From Pararhizobium sp. IMCC21322 (GTDB lineage Bacteria; Pseudomonadota; Alphaproteobacteria; Rhizobiales; GCA-2746425), in assembly GCF_030758295.1 (NCBI RefSeq), contig NZ_CP132335.1, positions 3,014,412 to 3,078,411 of the forward strand: a stretch of DNA of 64,000 nucleotides, given 5' to 3'. Shown one piece after another: positions 23,117-42,955 of this stretch. The position numbers and the translations under genes were made by a program. Each line of letters starts with the position of its first letter. Position 1 is the stretch's first letter. Below the pieces are notes generated by a model. The model worked only from the letters and a program-made list of their open reading frames with translations. It was not told the DNA's origin and ran no database searches.

Positions 23117-23146
23117 TGATCCACTCTTGCAAAAGCATCGTAACAC
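23117..23146 (+). promoter_or_regulatory. ECF (RpoE/ECF11-type) promoter before the chrR-like gene
   Basis: TGATCC at 23117-23122, exactly 18 bases, then TAACAC at 23141. This is the arrangement of the Rhodobacter sphaeroides RpoE promoters (TGATCC-N18-TA). The chrR-like start codon lies about 80 bases downstream. The same element with the same spacing occurs before phrB. Confidence 0.7.
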
Positions 23147-23229
23147 AATTGAGAAAAGTATATGTGCGTGGTCTAATTGGCAGTAGAATTGATTACCACC
23201 ACCACAGGTAGATTTGGGATTGACTAGTG

Positions 23230-23874
23230 ATGCTTGAACAAGCCGACGCCATTGACGCATTGATGGCGGAATTCGTTTCCGGAACATTGCCAACGCCGCT
23301 TCAGGTGTTGCTTGCGTCGCATTTGGAGATGAGCAGATCAAACAGCGAATGGGTTTCTAACCTCGAAGCTTTGGCGGGCCTCGAGCTGGCTGACATTGAG
23401 CCGGTTGCTTTGTCTGATCGAGACGCAATGCTGGCGCGTATTTTGTCCTCAAATAGCGGGTCGGAAAGCACTAGTGAAGTCACGACAGAAGATGAAACAC
23501 CGGAATCATTGCGTCATTTTATTGGATCAACCGTTTCGGACATCCCCTGGAAGCGAAACCGCTTTGCCAGCATTGATGAGGTAAAGCTGGGCGAGTTTGA
23601 CGGCTGCAAGGCAACCTTGTTTCGGCTACCGGCCGGGCAGGGCGTTCCGCACCATACACATGAAGGCACTGAAATAACCCTGGTGTTGAAGGGAGCGTTT
23701 AGTGATGGCACTGGCCACTACAAAAAAGGTGAGATTTCCATCGCTGATGGAACAGTAGATCACAGGCCAGTTGCCGATCAGGACGAGGATTGCATTTGCT
23801 TTGCGGTCACAGACGCGCCGCTTCGACTGACAGGGCCATTGGGACGCTTCATAGCGCCTTTCATACGCATCTAG
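23230..23874 (+). CDS. ChrR-like cupin anti-sigma protein with altered zinc site
   Basis: About 214 residues: a short helical N-terminal anti-sigma-like domain and a C-terminal cupin (GVPHHTHEGTEITLVLKGAF, then HRPVAD) of the ChrR family, which in Rhodobacter restrains RpoE until singlet oxygen appears. In the N-terminal domain the ChrR zinc ligands His6/His31/Cys35/Cys38 align with Asp/His/Ser/Asn (ASHLEMSRSN), so three of four are lost. The cupin metal residues are kept. No sigma factor gene is adjacent. GTG 23227 or ATG 23230 could start it. The SDR gene follows by about 48 bases. Confidence 0.82.
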   Translation: MLEQADAIDALMAEFVSGTLPTPLQVLLASHLEMSRSNSEWVSNLEALAGLELADIEPVALSDRDAMLARILSSNSGSESTSEVTTEDETPESLRHFIGSTVSDIPWKRNRFASIDEVKLGEFDGCKATLFRLPAGQGVPHHTHEGTEITLVLKGAFSDGTGHYKKGEISIADGTVDHRPVADQDEDCICFAVTDAPLRLTGPLGRFIAPFIRI

Positions 23875-23921
23875 CCCATTTCAAGCCCAACTCTACTGCA
23901 CCTCTCGCTACAAAGGGCATC

Positions 23922-24713
23922 ATGCCGCAATATATCGCTAAACCATCTGATGGTATCGCCTGGATTACCGGAGCCAGCAGTGGTCTTGGATACCATGTCG
24001 CAAAAAATCTGGCCGCTGCCGGATGGACGGTTGCAGCCACCGCACGGGGTGCTGATGATCTCGAGGCGTTGGCTTCTGAGTGCGCGTCACTGTCGGGGCA
24101 GGTGGTTCCAATGCCCGGAGATGTGACTGATCAGGAGGCAATGTCGAAGATTGCTTCTGAGCTCATCTCCAACCATGGCGGCATTGCATTGCTCATTCTC
24201 AACGCAGGCATTTATCTGCCATTGAGAGCCAGTGAGTTGAAATTGTCTGACTTCGACAAAACAATCGCCGTAAATCTGAATGGTGTCACCAATTGTCTTG
24301 TTCCATGTCTTGATCACATGCGTCAGGCGAAGCGTGGCCAGATTGCCATTGTGTCATCGGTTGCCGGTTATGGCGGATTGCCCACATCAGCGGCCTATGG
24401 GGCGACCAAGGCAGGCCTGACAAACATGGCCGAAAGCCTGAAGTTTGACCTTGATCTGTTGAACATCCACATCCAGGTCGTACATCCCGGATTTATCGAT
24501 ACTCCCGCGACGGAAACAAACCCGTTCCCGATGCCATTTTTAATGGAGGTGGAGGACGCGGCAGACCGGCTTGTCGATGGATTGGGGTCGAAAGGGTTTG
24601 AAATCACATTTCCCAGACGCTTTACCTGGGGTCTCAAACTGATCAATCTTTTGCCATACCCAGTGTATTTCTGGTTGGTAAACCGGGCCACTGGCTGGGG
24701 AAAAAAGGGCTGA
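23922..24713 (+). CDS. Short-chain dehydrogenase/reductase
   Basis: About 263 residues of the classical SDR fold: cofactor loop TGASSGLG near residue 16, NAGIYLP, catalytic Ser in VSSVAGYGG, and the Tyr/Lys pair in YGATKAG. C-terminal hydrophobic segment LINLLPYPVYFWLV suggests membrane association, as in lipid-acting SDRs. ATG 23922 begins the family-typical sequence. It lies 48 bases after the chrR-like gene and probably shares its ECF promoter. Substrate unknown; SDR genes are also part of the Rhodobacter RpoE regulon. Confidence 0.9.
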   Translation: MPQYIAKPSDGIAWITGASSGLGYHVAKNLAAAGWTVAATARGADDLEALASECASLSGQVVPMPGDVTDQEAMSKIASELISNHGGIALLILNAGIYLPLRASELKLSDFDKTIAVNLNGVTNCLVPCLDHMRQAKRGQIAIVSSVAGYGGLPTSAAYGATKAGLTNMAESLKFDLDLLNIHIQVVHPGFIDTPATETNPFPMPFLMEVEDAADRLVDGLGSKGFEITFPRRFTWGLKLINLLPYPVYFWLVNRATGWGKKG

Positions 24714-24762
24714 AGCCACAATGGCCTAAGCCCAGCAAATGGAGCTGTTCCACCGCAACAAT

Positions 24763-26082
24763 TCATCTGGCCTCGATTTTCCGCCTCAGTTCAAACTGAC
24801 GCGCTTCATCCAGCGGGAAATTCCACATCAGGCCTATTGCCAGTGCCTTCAGTAGCACAGGCAGGCCGCCATAGAGCAAAGCCAGCGTTAACAATGCAGA
24901 AGATGTATTGTCCGACTGCGCATCAAAGCCGACCCATGACAGCAACGGAAAGGCCAACCCGACACCCAGGGCGAGGGAGGCCTTCGTCGCCAGACCCCAG
25001 AATGCGAAGTAGAAACCGCTGCGTTGTTCCCCGGTCTCTGCTGTATCTATGTCAATCACGTCGGCCTGTATGGACGCAGGCAAGGTCAGATCTGCCCCAA
25101 GGGTCAGCCCGGTGAGAACGCAGATGATCGCGAACCACCATACATCGCCATCCCCCAGCAGCAGCACCAGCAGAAACACCGGGAGGGCCAGAATCATTGC
25201 GATACACCAGGTTCGGTGTTTCCCCAATTTTTTCGAAACCTTCAACCAGATCGGCACACCGGCAATACCGCACAGAAAATACAGGATGAGCAGTGGTCCT
25301 TGCACAGCTGACGCATTCAGGACGTTTCCGACAAATAGCAAAAAAAGCGTTGCTGGAAGTCCATTCGCCAAGCCATTGACAAAAAAAGATAAAAGCAACC
25401 GCATGAAGACTGTATTTGTGCGCAGAAACCGCATCCCCTCGACAAAACCGATGCTCTGGCGCGTGTGCTCCTTTGGCTCAGGAACCCGCCAGACAGTCAA
25501 AGCGGCAGCAAGGGGCAGACCCAGGCAAACGAAAACGGCAAGAGAGAACAGGCCGCTTGCGTCTATGTCCTGAGAGCCTGAAGCCAGTATTGGCAGACTG
25601 ATGGCAATCAGCGTTCCGAAGACAACCAGCCCCTCACGCATACCGCTCAATCGTGAGCGCATCTGATAATCACCGCTCAATTCCGCACCCCAGGCAGCAT
25701 AGGGCAACTGGACCATACTCCAGCCAATTGAAAGAAGAAGGCCCCACATCGCAAGATAGAAGATTGATGGGCTATCGCCTGGAACAAAAATCATCCAGGT
25801 GCCAAGAATGGTCAGTGGCACACCTGCAAGAAACCAGCTTCGCCGTCGTCCGAATGAAGGCCGGATACGGTCACTCATCCAGCCGATCAAGGGGTCATTA
25901 ACGGCATCGAAAAGTCTGATTGCGGACAGCACAATGCCAACAAGGGCCAGATCAAGCCCCAGAGCCTTGGTGTAATAGGTCGGAACGAAAATGAAAAAGG
26001 GAAGCGTCAGGACGGAAATCGGAATCGCCGGAAGCCCGTAGACAAGAATCTGGCTCCAACGCAAGCCCTGCGTGCCTGACAC
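24763..26082 (-). CDS. MFS transporter, GPH (MelB-like) family
   Basis: 439 residues with about 12 membrane spans. GPH-type signature in the loop between spans 2 and 3: NDPLIGWMSDRIRPSFGRRRSW. The family usually couples sugar uptake to cations, but members linked to fatty-acid methyltransferase clusters may carry other compounds. It starts 3 bases after the cfa-like stop, so it is the last gene of the phrB operon. The substrate cannot be inferred from sequence. Confidence 0.9.
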   Translation of the reverse strand: MSGTQGLRWSQILVYGLPAIPISVLTLPFFIFVPTYYTKALGLDLALVGIVLSAIRLFDAVNDPLIGWMSDRIRPSFGRRRSWFLAGVPLTILGTWMIFVPGDSPSIFYLAMWGLLLSIGWSMVQLPYAAWGAELSGDYQMRSRLSGMREGLVVFGTLIAISLPILASGSQDIDASGLFSLAVFVCLGLPLAAALTVWRVPEPKEHTRQSIGFVEGMRFLRTNTVFMRLLLSFFVNGLANGLPATLFLLFVGNVLNASAVQGPLLILYFLCGIAGVPIWLKVSKKLGKHRTWCIAMILALPVFLLVLLLGDGDVWWFAIICVLTGLTLGADLTLPASIQADVIDIDTAETGEQRSGFYFAFWGLATKASLALGVGLAFPLLSWVGFDAQSDNTSSALLTLALLYGGLPVLLKALAIGLMWNFPLDEARQFELRRKIEAR

Positions 26083-26085
26083 CCG

Positions 26086-27330
26086 TTACTTGCGTGCAAA
26101 AACGAGTTGACGGACATCTATGTTTTCGGACCGAAAACCTGCTTCACAATAATGCAGATAATAACGCCACAATTGCTTGAAACGGTGATCAAAGCCAAGC
26201 GGCATGATGGTAGGCCATGCATCGTCAAACCGCTGACGCCAAATCTGCAAAGTCTTCGCATAATCATGACCGAACACGCGCTCGGAAATCATTTGCAAAT
26301 CTGCCTCATCGCCCAGTGATTTCAAAATGAGAGGAGAGGGAAGCATGCCGCCGGGGAAGATATACCGACGGATAAAATCCATCTCGTTCCGATAGGACTC
26401 AAAGAAACGATCCTGAATAGTGATGATCTGTAATCCGGCTGTTCCACCCGGCTTGAGGCACGTTTTCATACGTTCAAAAAACACAGGCCAATATTCCTCA
26501 CCAACAGCTTCGAACATTTCAATCGAAGCAATACGGTCATATTGGCCTTTTTCGTCCCGATAATCCTGAAATTTGATATTTACCTTATCGTTCAAGCCAG
26601 CTTTGAAAACCCGCTCTTTCGCAAACTCAAACTGCTCTTTCGAAATGGTCAACGCGGTGACATTGCAACCGATTTCCCTGGCTGCAAATTCTGCAAAACC
26701 ACCCCATCCGCAGCCTATTTCAAGGACGTCGTCAGAAGGCTGAAAACCAGCTTCTGTGGCGAGCGCACGGTATTTCTGGGTCTGGGCTGTCGATAAATCT
26801 TCCTGCCCATTTTCAAAAACGGCGGATGAATACGTCATCGTAGGATCAAGCCATTGTTGATAAAATGCATTTCCCAGATCGTAATGCGCTGAAATGTTCT
26901 TGCGTGATCCGCGGCGGGTGTTGCGGTTCAGCCAACCGCGGAACTTCATAAAGAGCTTCACCCCCCGACGGTTCTCAATCGCTTGTGAAATGAGACCCTG
27001 ATTAACGCAAAAAAGTTCCAGGAACTTTGTGACGTCCGGGCTGCTCCACTCCTCAGCCATAAACCCCTCTGCAACGCCGATGTCGCCCCGCTTGAAAAGG
27101 CGAGAGGCAAAATTGTAATCGTGGATGATCAGTTCTGCAGCGGGGCCGGGCTCACTTCCAACTATCTTGTAAACTTCGCCATTCGGCAATTCAAGGACCA
27201 GTGAACCAGCCTCCAATCGGGTGGCGAAACGAACAACTGCGCGCATGATACGCGGCAGCGAGCCGGTTGCTTCTTTGACATTGTCATGCGTGACCAGAAT
27301 GGCTTGGCGGTCAGGTGCGGATAAGGTCAT
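26086..27330 (-). CDS. Cyclopropane-fatty-acyl-phospholipid synthase family methyltransferase
   Basis: 414 residues. SAM-dependent methyltransferase that modifies unsaturated acyl chains of membrane phospholipids (cyclopropane or related methyl products). N-terminal lipid-binding domain; then NISAHYDLGNAFYQQWLD, SAM motif VLEIGCGWGGFAEF near residue 200, ASIEMFEAVGEEYWPVFF (active-site Glu) and FIRRYIFPGGMLPS. Conserved bicarbonate-site residues appear intact. Context with DUF1365, an FAD amine-oxidase-like protein and photolyase is a recurrent stress-associated cluster. In such clusters the product may not be a plain cyclopropane acid, so I leave the symbol empty. Confidence 0.92.
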   Translation of the reverse strand: MTLSAPDRQAILVTHDNVKEATGSLPRIMRAVVRFATRLEAGSLVLELPNGEVYKIVGSEPGPAAELIIHDYNFASRLFKRGDIGVAEGFMAEEWSSPDVTKFLELFCVNQGLISQAIENRRGVKLFMKFRGWLNRNTRRGSRKNISAHYDLGNAFYQQWLDPTMTYSSAVFENGQEDLSTAQTQKYRALATEAGFQPSDDVLEIGCGWGGFAEFAAREIGCNVTALTISKEQFEFAKERVFKAGLNDKVNIKFQDYRDEKGQYDRIASIEMFEAVGEEYWPVFFERMKTCLKPGGTAGLQIITIQDRFFESYRNEMDFIRRYIFPGGMLPSPLILKSLGDEADLQMISERVFGHDYAKTLQIWRQRFDDAWPTIMPLGFDHRFKQLWRYYLHYCEAGFRSENIDVRQLVFARK

Positions 27331-27414
27331 AGGGTCGTTAGTTCCTGCTGCAAATTCGCACGAAAGCTTAGCATCAAGACTGCTATAATCTCAAGCTTGC
27401 CATGATAAATGGCA

Positions 27415-28218
27415 TCAAACATCAATCGGTTCAACATTATCGCCGTAGGAAACTGGTTGCGGACGCTTGGGGCGACGATGGAATTTCGCCCCCTTTTTCC
27501 ACAATTTCAGCGCTTCCCAATGGATACCGCCGACGATTTTCAACGTTTGAAACGGGACCTGAAAGAAAGCGCGTAAAAGCATTCCACTTGTGAGCGGAAA
27601 GCGATCGCCGCTGAAGGTGGCCGACAATAATGGACCCTCATGGTCGCATTCAAGAATACGCAGGGTGAGCCTTTCATCTGGCCGGTTCAACCGAAATCGA
27701 TAGCGCATTTCCATTTTGATAAAAGGCGAGACATAGAATCGCTTGTCCCGTTCCTGACGAACATGGCCATCGTGCATCTCTCCCGCCCGGATGGGAGCGA
27801 CATAGGTATGGGTCTCGCCGAACGTATTGCGAACCTCATAGATAATGGCGGTCAAGACATCCACAGCATCATAGCAATAGTAAACCGACAGGGGGTTGAA
27901 GACCCAGCCCAGAATACGGGGATAACAAAGCAGCTTTATTCTGTGAGGGCGCGTTTCGCCAGCCTTTAATAGCAAACTGTCAATATGAGCCCGCAGCGAC
28001 GAGCCATCTCGCGAGCCATGATCCTTGTCGAAAAAGCTCAACAAATTGAAACGGTTATGCGAAAAAACAGGGCTTTTTACCGCAGTGGCAAGATTATCGA
28101 GGTCCAACAGCATCGCGTAGACACTATACTGAAATCGGTGACCCATTGGCTTCAACCGCGCATGCATGACGGTCCCTTTGTAAAGGGCGCTGTCAGAAAC
28201 TGGTGAAGCATTCAACAT
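27415..28218 (-). CDS. DUF1365 family protein
   Basis: 267 residues matching DUF1365: YKGTVMHARLKPMGHRFQYSVY at the N-terminus, LLCYPRILGWVFNPLSVYYCYD, TFGETHTY and HVRQERDKRFYVSPF. The biochemical function is not established; the family nearly always accompanies the FAD amine-oxidase-like protein and the cfa-like methyltransferase found here. Its ATG overlaps the upstream stop by one base (TAATG), and the cfa-like gene follows after 84 bases. Confidence 0.9.
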   Translation of the reverse strand: MLNASPVSDSALYKGTVMHARLKPMGHRFQYSVYAMLLDLDNLATAVKSPVFSHNRFNLLSFFDKDHGSRDGSSLRAHIDSLLLKAGETRPHRIKLLCYPRILGWVFNPLSVYYCYDAVDVLTAIIYEVRNTFGETHTYVAPIRAGEMHDGHVRQERDKRFYVSPFIKMEMRYRFRLNRPDERLTLRILECDHEGPLLSATFSGDRFPLTSGMLLRAFFQVPFQTLKIVGGIHWEALKLWKKGAKFHRRPKRPQPVSYGDNVEPIDV

Positions 28219-29516
28219 TATTCTGCAGCTTCAACAAAAGCATGTTCGTCATTTGCAGCAACCGGACGCCATGGGATTATCCCGCCAAGCTTTTCTGCAA
28301 CACGCAATCCAGAGGACAAGCCGTCCTCATGGAAGCCGTAGCCCGTCCACGCGCCGCAGAACCATGTACGGTTAACGCCTTGAATGCGTTCCAGTTCCTT
28401 CTGTGCGGCTAAAGCGGAACTGTCATATTGTGGATGATCATATTGAAATACTTCAAAAACCAGATGCTCGGCAGGTTTTCTGACAGGGTTGAGGCTGACG
28501 AAGAGCGGTTTTTCCAAGGCAATGCCCTGCAGCTTGTTCATCCAGTAAGTCACGGAGACATCGGGATCATCAGGCTCGCCATCGCTCAGATAGTTCCAGG
28601 CAGCCCAAGCCCCTTTACGACGTGGCATAAGAGACGGGTCACGATGTAAATACACAGAATTGGGCTTGAAACGTACCCGCGACAGGATATCGGTCTCATC
28701 TGCTGAGGCGTCACCAAGGCTTTTCAGGGTCTGATCACTGTGCCCGGCCATGATCACCTGATCGTAGGTCTCGGTTGCGCCCTGACTGTCTGTAATGGCC
28801 ACTCCATCGCTGTTGCGCACCACTGAGACAACTTCACAATCCAGCTTGATGTTGGATTGCAGTGGGGCAAGCAGTTTTTCGACATAGTTTCTGCTGCCAC
28901 CTGTGACCGTACGCCAATTTGGCCGCTCAAAGTGCAAAAGACGATGATTGTTGAAAAAGTTTGCAAAACTCTCCACTGGAAAGGCCAGCATTTCCGCAGC
29001 TGGCGTAGACCAGATCGCAGAGCCCATAGGCACAAGATATTCATTGCGAAATCGTTGTGAGAATTTCCGTTTATCCAGATAGGACCCAAGGGACAGGCCT
29101 GATAATTTGTTCGTCGCCAGATCATCAAGGCACTGCCGGTTGAAGCGGAAAATTTCCTTCAGCATCCACAAAAAGCTTGGCGAAAACAGGTTACGCTTTT
29201 GGGCAAAGATGCCGCGAGGAATGCTTCCGCTCCATTCGGAGCCACCGCGCCTGCTGAATGAAAAGCTCATATCGCTGGCTTCAGTCGCAACGCCAAGGTG
29301 GTCGAACAATGCTGTCAGATTTGGGTAGTTCAGACCGTTGTAAACAATAAAACCGGTATCAACACTAATAGTCTCGCCATCATAGTCCACGTCAACGGTC
29401 GCACTATGGCCACCCGGCCGGCTGCGTTTCTCGTAAAGTGTCACCTGATGTTTCCGGTGGAGGGCCCAGGCGGCGGAATTGCCGGAAATCCCAGAGCCAA
29501 TAACAGCGATTTTCAT
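28218..29516 (-). CDS. FAD-dependent amine-oxidase-like protein
   Basis: About 432 residues of the NAD(P)/FAD-dependent, amine-oxidase-like superfamily. The N-terminal dinucleotide fold KIAVIGSGISGNSAAWAL is followed by LYEKRSRPGGHS and SVDTGFIVYN; the C-terminal FCGAWTGYGFHEDGLSSG binds the flavin. It likely desaturates or oxidises a lipid-bound substrate together with its neighbours, but the reaction is an inference. ATG 29516 begins at the family start MKIAVIGSG; ATG 29540 is in frame. It lies 29 bases after phrB. Confidence 0.9.
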   Translation of the reverse strand: MKIAVIGSGISGNSAAWALHRKHQVTLYEKRSRPGGHSATVDVDYDGETISVDTGFIVYNGLNYPNLTALFDHLGVATEASDMSFSFSRRGGSEWSGSIPRGIFAQKRNLFSPSFLWMLKEIFRFNRQCLDDLATNKLSGLSLGSYLDKRKFSQRFRNEYLVPMGSAIWSTPAAEMLAFPVESFANFFNNHRLLHFERPNWRTVTGGSRNYVEKLLAPLQSNIKLDCEVVSVVRNSDGVAITDSQGATETYDQVIMAGHSDQTLKSLGDASADETDILSRVRFKPNSVYLHRDPSLMPRRKGAWAAWNYLSDGEPDDPDVSVTYWMNKLQGIALEKPLFVSLNPVRKPAEHLVFEVFQYDHPQYDSSALAAQKELERIQGVNRTWFCGAWTGYGFHEDGLSSGLRVAEKLGGIIPWRPVAANDEHAFVEAAE

Positions 29517-29545
29517 AGAGTTGTCCCAATCTTTCGGCATGTTGC

Positions 29546-31036
29546 CTATGCGTCTTCTTTTGTTTTTTTAAATGCCGAGAGGGCTTTCTCACGCGCGACT
29601 GAATGATCAACAATCGGTTTTGGATACGTTTCCCCCAACTCAACCCCAGCCCTTTTCAAAACATCTTCCGGCGCGTCCCAAGGCGCGTTCAGATACTTGT
29701 CTGGAAGGTCCTTCAACTCATTTACATATTTGCGAATATACGCGCCTTCCTGATCAAATTTGGCACCCTGTGTCATGGGGTTGAATATTCGGAAATAGGG
29801 TGCTGCGTCCGCGCCGGATCCTGCAATCCATTGCCAGCTTGCAGCATTATTTGCCGGATCCGCATCCACAAGCGTATCCCAAAACCATTCCTCACCATGC
29901 CGCCAGTCCAGAAGCAGGTGCTTCACCAGGAACGAGCCTACAATCATCCGTACCCGATTGTGCATCCAGCCAGTCTGCCATAATTGTCGCATGCCAGCAT
30001 CCACCATGGGATACCCGGTTTGCCCTTTTTGCCAAGCCGGCAACAGCTCCAGGCGTTCACTCCACGGAAACGCATCAAACCTTGGCTGAAAATTCCGCTT
30101 TCGCAGGTCAGGATTGAAGTACAGCAACGTATATGAGAACTCACGCCACAGCACTTCTGACAGGAACTTCTCCTGGTCGTTCGAAGGCACATCCAAATCA
30201 GGCGCGGAGGCTGCTGCCCATATCTGATAGGGGCTTATTTCGCCAAAAGCCAGGTGAGGCGAAAGACAAGAAGTCCCGCCTTCTTTGGCGGGCAAATCCC
30301 TGTCCTTGTGGTAGTCAATTATACCACCATCGTGAAGAAAAGCGTTCAGACGGTCCCTGGCTCCGTCTTCACCGACATTCCAGGAAGCCGCTATAGGTTC
30401 CGACCAGTCAGGAGATGTTGGATGCAAACCCCAGTCCGACAACGCGTCCGAAGGTATTTGAGATTCACTTCCCCGAATGCTTTTTGGCGCGGGGTAGGGT
30501 GACCTGTCGACACCCAGAGACAGACAGGCGCGTTTGAACGGAGTATAGACTTTGTAATATCCGCCGGTTTTTTTTTCAATTTCCCAAGGCTCGAACAACA
30601 CATTTGCCTTGAAGCTCTTGGCATCTAGGCCCTGTTCTTTCAGCTGCTGCTTGACGGCTTTGTCAGCCTCCACGCCCGCCTTGTCGTACCGCCGGTTCCA
30701 GAAGACGGCGCGCGCGCCTGTGTGCTCAATGATGTCTCTAAGAACGGAAAGCGGCTCACCTGTGCGCAAAACAAGCGTTCCACCAAGCTCATGTATGGAT
30801 TTTGAGAGGGTCGTGAGGCTCTGGTTCAACCACCATTTGGAGGCGTCACCAATATCACGCTTGCCAGATTCAAGTATGTATACACAGATCACTGGCCCGC
30901 CACGCTCTGCTGCGGCCAGCAGGGCAGGATTGTCGGCAACGCGCAGATCGTTGCGAAACCAGACTAAGCTGGGTGCATCCGACTTTTTTGGTTTTGTTTC
31001 CACCGATTCTACGACGGTGTTTTCAGCGTTTTTCAT
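29546..31036 (-). CDS. phrB: Deoxyribodipyrimidine (CPD) photolyase
   Basis: Light-driven repair of cyclobutane pyrimidine dimers. About 496 residues: antenna-chromophore domain LVWFRNDLRVADNPAL, then the FAD-binding region with WREFSYTLLYFNPDL, GYPMVDAGMRQLWQTGWMHNR and DTLVDADPANNAASWQWIAG (tryptophan-rich electron path). The class I type with a 30-residue N-terminal extension. First gene of the minus-strand stress operon; an ECF-type promoter lies 28-58 bases before its ATG, as for phrA in Rhodobacter. Confidence 0.94.
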   Translation of the reverse strand: MKNAENTVVESVETKPKKSDAPSLVWFRNDLRVADNPALLAAAERGGPVICVYILESGKRDIGDASKWWLNQSLTTLSKSIHELGGTLVLRTGEPLSVLRDIIEHTGARAVFWNRRYDKAGVEADKAVKQQLKEQGLDAKSFKANVLFEPWEIEKKTGGYYKVYTPFKRACLSLGVDRSPYPAPKSIRGSESQIPSDALSDWGLHPTSPDWSEPIAASWNVGEDGARDRLNAFLHDGGIIDYHKDRDLPAKEGGTSCLSPHLAFGEISPYQIWAAASAPDLDVPSNDQEKFLSEVLWREFSYTLLYFNPDLRKRNFQPRFDAFPWSERLELLPAWQKGQTGYPMVDAGMRQLWQTGWMHNRVRMIVGSFLVKHLLLDWRHGEEWFWDTLVDADPANNAASWQWIAGSGADAAPYFRIFNPMTQGAKFDQEGAYIRKYVNELKDLPDKYLNAPWDAPEDVLKRAGVELGETYPKPIVDHSVAREKALSAFKKTKEDA

Positions 31037-31063
31037 GTGAACTGCTAACCTGGTTCTCTAAAC

Positions 31064-31094
31064 AACTATACGCTGTTCACCATGCAACGGATCA
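31064..31094 (-). promoter_or_regulatory. ECF (RpoE/ECF11-type) promoter before phrB
   Basis: On the minus strand TGATCC (31094-31089), exactly 18 bases, then TATAGTT (31070-31064). It matches the RpoE promoter pattern of Rhodobacter and the second copy before the chrR-like gene. The phrB ATG is at 31036. Confidence 0.7.
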
Positions 31095-42830: not shown

Positions 42831-42906
42831 TGGCTCCCCGAGTCGGACTCGAACCAACGACAAGGTGATTAACAGTCACCTGCTCTACCAACTGAGCTAT
42901 CGGGGA
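42831..42906 (-). tRNA. tRNA-Asn (anticodon GTT)
   Basis: 76-base cloverleaf on the minus strand: acceptor TCCCCGA with TCGGGGA, anticodon loop TGTTAAT between GTGAC and the matching arm, T-loop TTCGAGT, encoded CCA. Confidence 0.97.
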
Positions 42907-42955
42907 TCAGTGGTGAGCGTCTATACAAAAGGAATGGGGCGTTGCCAAGACCCGA

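Follow-up and report, generated by a model that had tools for sequence, protein, structure and literature searches.

Among the closest described relatives of the locus discussed here is the RpoE–ChrR system of Rhodobacter sphaeroides, in which the genes for the extracytoplasmic function (ECF) sigma factor RpoE (sigma-E) and for its anti-sigma factor ChrR form one sigma-E-driven operon, and in which ChrR needs the zinc of its anti-sigma domain. Its core regulon, as tabulated in PMC5507510 (Table 2), comprises rpoE, chrR, phrB, cfa, RSP_1087 (encoding a short-chain dehydrogenase/reductase, SDR), RSP_1088, RSP_1090 and RSP_1091. The same source (Table 3) gives TGATCC-n16-CGTA as the consensus of PSPTO_1043, an ECF11-type sigma factor of Pseudomonas syringae, and the promoters of Shewanella oneidensis RpoE2 are reported to have the same form, with transcription starts mapped for two of them, rpoE2 and pgpD (PMC4336711). 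Here we describe a 64,000-nucleotide stretch of Pararhizobium sp. IMCC21322 (contig NZ_CP132335.1, positions 3,014,412 to 3,078,411), referred to as the window, which is probably home to the effector island of a rewired ECF11 (RpoE–ChrR) photo-oxidative stress regulon – one in which the sigma factor drives the gene of a zinc-free anti-sigma factor and not its own.

The likeness to R. sphaeroides extends to the sigma factor, the two-domain fold of ChrR, the promoter consensus and a core set of phrB, cfa, RSP_1091-type, RSP_1087-type and probably RSP_1090-type genes. By family, the island thus offers candidates for chrR, phrB, cfa, RSP_1087 and RSP_1091; rpoE is absent from it, and RSP_1088 was not among the genes sought. 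RSP_1090 we take to be a DUF1365 protein, and it is on that footing that the island's DUF1365 gene is called RSP_1090-like. Unlike the R. sphaeroides operon, and unlike the PSPTO_1043/1042 and RpoE2–ChrR loci, in which sigma and anti-sigma genes also adjoin, rpoE and chrR here lie about 1.05 Mb apart, with a promoter of this type on chrR only, and the window ChrR has lost three of the four zinc ligands. The preliminary description of this DNA, which had read the island as an RpoE regulon, was right about the promoter type and the gene families, and it had omitted both the remote RpoE gene and the loss of the zinc ligands.

The two predicted RpoE/ECF11-type promoters, each conserved in relatives, lie before chrR (23117..23142, forward strand; TGATCC-N16-CGTA, then ACAC) and before phrB (31069..31094, reverse strand; the same core, then TAG), and both are intergenic relative to the seven island genes. 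From the end of CGTA it is 87 bases to the chrR start codon (ATG at 23230; 113 from the motif start) and 32 bases to that of phrB (ATG at 31036; 58 from the motif start). TGATCC-N18-TA, the form in which the motif had originally been noticed, is indeed found at 23117–23142 and, on the other strand, at 31094–31069, but the core common to both sites is better given as TGATCC-N16-CGTA. The former pattern occurs three times in the window, where 1.25 occurrences are expected (at least three in 11 of 100 shuffles), and 114 times in the 5.25-Mb genome, whereas the latter occurs in the window exactly twice against 0.04 expected, a count matched by none of 100 shuffles. The extension was picked after both sites had been seen, yet it equals the published consensus (PMC5507510, PMC4336711), which supports the RpoE/ECF11 type proposed earlier; the PSPTO_1043 promoter, as printed in PMC5507510, has TGATCCACTCTT and CGTAACAC in common with the chrR site of the window. 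A looser match (N16-TA, 42886–42909), overlapping the start of a tRNA-Asn gene (42831–42906, reverse strand), shows what a chance match can look like.

The case for these sites rests on their conservation, not on their genome-wide count. Named relatives were sought with a query derived from zinc-less ChrRs, both search patterns lying in the cupin half, and the 80 best of the 348 found form the set used here, which includes Roseibium, Stappia, Pannonibacter, Prosthecomicrobium, Bosea, Rhizobium, Mesorhizobium and other genera. The motif (N15–17) precedes chrR in 62 of these 80 loci, compared with 1.9% of background pieces, and 39 of the 63 scorable loci have it in exact form before the gene that opens the convergent operon (for the flavin adenine dinucleotide (FAD)-dependent amine oxidase-like gene, 23 of 29). 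In the two closest named relatives (L153, L154), the phrB site persists with an altered spacer, 58 bases ahead of the phrB match. Among the island genes, SDR (76/80), cfa (70/80), DUF1365 (69/80) and FAD (67/80) are kept near chrR, phrB (38/80) and the MFS transporter gene (33/80) less often, while RpoE was found in none of the 80 loci, 19 of which end early at contig ends. The consensus stands before both operons, and homologues of phrB, cfa, RSP_1091, RSP_1090 and RSP_1087 are present by Pfam family; that known targets would be found here had been anticipated, and photolyase, cfa, flavin amine oxidase and SDR genes do belong to the published core regulon (PMC5507510). Membership of both operons in an RpoE regulon is strongly indicated by these sequence comparisons.

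The sigma factor gene itself was located at G000:C1:1982920–1983558. The best solved match of its product is 2q1z, R. sphaeroides RpoE (1.2e-46), and its ECF11 type was judged by this structural match. Among the 13 sigma-70-region-2 matches in the genome, this single ECF11-like RpoE stands out, the next-best match being 30% identical (2.1e-26). No motif was found upstream of this rpoE, where the best score (7/10) is at background level, and rpoE and chrR do not share one autoregulated operon. An RpoH-type sigma gene at 228 kb does have a further N16 site, 46 bases upstream of it (L005 1501–1526; G000:C1:228232–228257), an arrangement that resembles the Rhodobacter cascade from sigma-E to RpoHII.

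The separation of the two genes is shared by many relatives. In a sample of 150 genomes of the order (RpoE threshold 1e-25; another 16, in which ChrR matches were weak or partial at best, are not part of the counts), ChrR was found in 93 and RpoE in the same 93, none having only one of the two. The pair is adjacent in 55 genomes and split in 38, and 31 of the 55 adjacent pairs and 30 of the 38 split rpoE genes supplied the loci for trees and motif counts. Where the genes adjoin, the exact motif (N15–17) stands before rpoE in 22 of 31 loci, with one mismatch in six more, and in none of the 31 does it occur within 200 bases before chrR. Where they are split, it stands before chrR in 33 of 38 (the window's included), with one mismatch in four more, and before rpoE in none of 30. 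Nor do the split rpoE genes have another upstream motif in common, as no 7-mer occurs before more than ten of the 30. The core of the RpoE recognition helix is unchanged in all 61 sequences, and in the RpoE tree the 31 adjacent-type sigma factors are split from the rest at 91/83, the outgroup – a single row on a long branch – falling within the non-adjacent group.

ECF33/EcfQ of Bradyrhizobium japonicum, which PMC3420878 describes as induced by reactive oxygen and as having no adjacent anti-sigma gene, is another alphaproteobacterial system close to this one, and the AS33-1/AS33-2 anti-sigma groups are listed beside it. That missing neighbour prompted its consideration as an identity for the split sigma factor, but the conserved inverted repeat upstream of ecfQ, TGTTTC-N17-GAAACA, on which the comparison was made, precedes none of the 30 split rpoE genes. 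Upstream of the split rpoE, 30 of 30 loci have a divergent reading frame belonging to a single component – in the window's genome, an IalB-family gene (L012 80–622, reverse strand). The neighbourhood was inspected for a possible new anti-sigma gene, and within 1.5 kb of rpoE this frame is the only other component present in all 30. Less widespread components near rpoE were judged by position only, and many are frames antisense to rpoE. The recurring divergent frame suggests that rpoE and chrR parted in the order through a single relocation.

ChrR of the window (23227..23874, forward strand; 214 amino acids from the ATG at 23230) consists of an anti-sigma domain and a cupin domain; it scores above the cut-off of the ChrR family TIGR02451 and has the two-domain fold. 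It is the only full-length ChrR of the genome, which also has one cupin-only partial match. All four metal ligands of the cupin domain are present, while in the anti-sigma domain the zinc ligands H6, C35 and C38 are gone; with H31 as the sole remaining ligand, the pattern H-X24-H-X3-C-X2-C is not found, and the protein should not bear the label of the zinc-binding anti-sigma (ZAS) subfamily. C35 and C38 are likewise absent from ChrR in 38 of 38 split genomes, 34 of which keep H31, and from all 80 named ChrRs, which nevertheless have H31 and the cupin ligands; among 30 adjacent ChrRs examined, C35 is kept in 29 and C38 in 27. (Neither the residue count nor the ChrR tree includes the ChrR of G026, whose locus runs into a contig end; G020 is also missing from that tree.) Split pairing and zinc loss are therefore lineage traits within the order, and a tree confined to the cupin half has a branch (100/97) that parts the 38 zinc-less proteins from all others. 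Pairwise identity within the zinc-less group is highest in the cupin (0.47), and the anti-sigma domain is as conserved as in zinc-type ChrRs (0.42 vs 0.43), with a more variable linker in both (0.25 and 0.18).

Residue 31, at 23320–23322 of the window, is a former ligand that persists in all 80 named proteins despite its lost partners. At residue 6 of the zinc-less ChrRs, D is commonest (17/38), and one might guess at a D6–H31 contact in place of zinc. Two split genomes, G059 (L119, L150) and G090 (L116, L151), have one zinc-type and one zinc-less ChrR each, both behind a motif, and only one RpoE each at the threshold used; their zinc-type ChrRs were excluded from the split counts.

These features can be assembled into a circuit. 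The remote RpoE would recognise TGATCC-N16-CGTA before chrR–SDR and before phrB–FAD–DUF1365–cfa–MFS, and probably also the motif before the rpoH gene; use of both island promoters we infer from their sequence and conservation. The chrR product would be a zinc-free anti-sigma factor that keeps its helical anti-sigma domain and restrains the distant RpoE. Such a role is suggested by the conservation of that domain together with the unchanged helix core of RpoE, and continued binding is plausible because zinc-free class I anti-sigma domains exist: Escherichia coli RseA and Mycobacterium tuberculosis RskA have a helical anti-sigma domain without zinc (PMC6852236, PMC7406223), and RseA is described as adopting the same fold as the anti-sigma domain of ChrR (PMC6852236). 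The zinc that staples the Rhodobacter domain being gone, the domain is probably held by packing, as in RseA, which differs from the window ChrR in being membrane-spanning, the latter having an intact cupin sensor domain beside the anti-sigma domain that has lost its zinc. Since the promoter sits on chrR and not on rpoE, free RpoE would raise only its own inhibitor, closing a negative-feedback loop. The intact cupin domain and the products of the FAD and DUF1365 genes would then mediate the effect of singlet oxygen or peroxide, because the cysteines proposed as a direct target are absent; entry of the signal through the cupin domain and lipid genes is, again, a predicted route.

A number of observations weigh against this picture. 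The check on motif frequency suggested in the preliminary description had a weak outcome: genome-wide, TGATCC and CGTA stand 16 bases apart at nine sites, 15 apart at six and 17 apart at five (20 in total), no clear excess at spacing 16, so the count alone does not carry the case and was rejected as proof. (A control with reversed patterns was set aside, as the reversed hexamer differs in composition.) Of 34 named loci, no more than 16 have the exact motif before phrB itself, and split genome G035 has none before chrR. Within the order, adjacent ChrRs also depart from the cysteine pattern (S/A in G063; C/S in G119 and G092), three of the 93 ChrRs (G011, G074, G048) fall below the family cut-off, and the additional zinc-type ChrRs of G059 and G090 lie away from rpoE with a motif of their own. 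In a sample of the class outside the order, the 74 genomes with ChrR comprise 67 adjacent and seven split pairs, and six further genomes have RpoE at 1e-25 with no ChrR at that threshold; C35 and C38 are kept in four of the seven split genomes and gone in three, the exact motif precedes chrR in five and is missing from two, and some adjacent ChrRs have no zinc cysteines. Among these, the rpoE-adjacent L243, L247 and L248 have C-K-V or H-D-S where H-C-C is expected, losses that are possibly independent. A strict tie between zinc loss and splitting was thus rejected outside the clade; both are recurrent, and only within the order did every split genome examined have a zinc-less ChrR. Finally, ChrR of R. 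sphaeroides is reported to need zinc binding to inhibit sigma-E (PMC6852236), and ligand loss could therefore mean lost inhibition.

How much the missing zinc matters can be read differently. An ordinary ECF11 regulon, in which zinc loss is a drifted detail of no functional meaning, would fit with zinc-less class I anti-sigma domains being common (about 44% in the survey PMC7406223), with the fold of RseA standing without zinc (PMC6852236) and with the loss of zinc ligands in ChrRs outside the order. It nonetheless seems unlikely to us: both cysteines are lost without exception across the split genomes and the named loci, H31 is retained in 34/38 and 80/80, respectively, and the zinc loss accompanies the moved promoter, so that circuit and sensor changed together in the clade. 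The same requirement for zinc in R. sphaeroides (PMC6852236) invites a more radical proposal, namely that zinc-less ChrR is an anti-sigma factor no longer but a cupin effector or an enzyme of the regulon, RpoE being controlled by another protein or through its transcription; chrR now acts as a target gene, and its cupin is the best preserved part. This would leave unexplained an anti-sigma domain conserved as in zinc-type ChrRs and the co-occurrence of RpoE and ChrR without exception in 93 genomes of the order, 38 of them split, and we regard it as improbable. That the motifs are due to chance, or are read by another of the genome's ECF sigma factors, is very hard to credit, for all that the motif by itself shows no clear enrichment genome-wide and 13 sigma-70-region-2 matches are available, given the footprint of both sites across many genera, the identical consensus in the literature (PMC5507510, PMC4336711) and the one ECF11-like RpoE that stands out.

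The layout of seven genes given at the outset – chrR–SDR, convergent with phrB–FAD–DUF1365–cfa–MFS – is correct. Second in the predicted chrR transcript, and also on the forward strand, is the RSP_1087-like short-chain dehydrogenase/reductase (23922..24713; adh_short, 6e-49). The predicted phrB transcript, on the reverse strand, begins with the deoxyribodipyrimidine photolyase gene phrB (29546..31036; FAD_binding_7, 5.9e-91; DNA_photolyase, 1.6e-51), followed by the genes for an RSP_1091-like, FAD-dependent amine oxidase-like protein (28218..29540; Amino_oxidase, 1.6e-25), the DUF1365 protein (27415..28218; DUF1365, 2.3e-79), a cyclopropane-fatty-acid synthase-like methyltransferase (cfa; 26086..27330; CMAS, 8.7e-83) and, last, an MFS_2 transporter (24763..26082; MFS_2, 1.2e-77). 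Elsewhere in the genome, L045 3725–6151 (G000:C1:3487724–3490150) encodes a double-cupin protein with weak similarity to ChrR, together with SDR-like and FAD amine oxidase-like frames called by eye; none of the genome's 20 TGATCC-N15–17-CGTA sites falls in this cluster.

In the literature searched, we found no description of a clade with zinc-less, unlinked ChrR, although the 2021 ECF reclassification may record one, and the only notice of an rpoE/chrR split that we came across is that of Nuss et al. The survey PMC7406223, by its account, gathers anti-sigma factors from ECF gene neighbourhoods, and unlinked ChrR partners would therefore be missed by it. Such partners bear on how singlet oxygen is sensed. 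One proposal has the chemistry take place at the anti-sigma-domain zinc finger, perhaps jointly with the cupin (PMC6432622), and another in the cupin domain and RSP_1090/1091 (PMC6852236, PMC3818230), whose products are reported to be needed for ChrR turnover, some of them making furan fatty acids; a 2019 review states that what exactly the zinc of the anti-sigma domain does is not known (PMC6852236). A clade without the finger but with the cupin and the lipid genes makes these proposals separable and offers a natural test of singlet-oxygen sensing. Related bacteria would also provide matched circuits – an autoregulated operon in some, inhibitor-only feedback in others. We suggest only tentatively, as a possibility that may well not hold, that this Hyphomicrobiales clade combines a ChrR without zinc finger, sensing through the cupin alone (with the FAD/DUF1365/cfa lipid route), pure negative feedback and a sigma factor made independently of itself. 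If it does, the zinc finger of the anti-sigma domain would not be an obligatory singlet-oxygen sensor.

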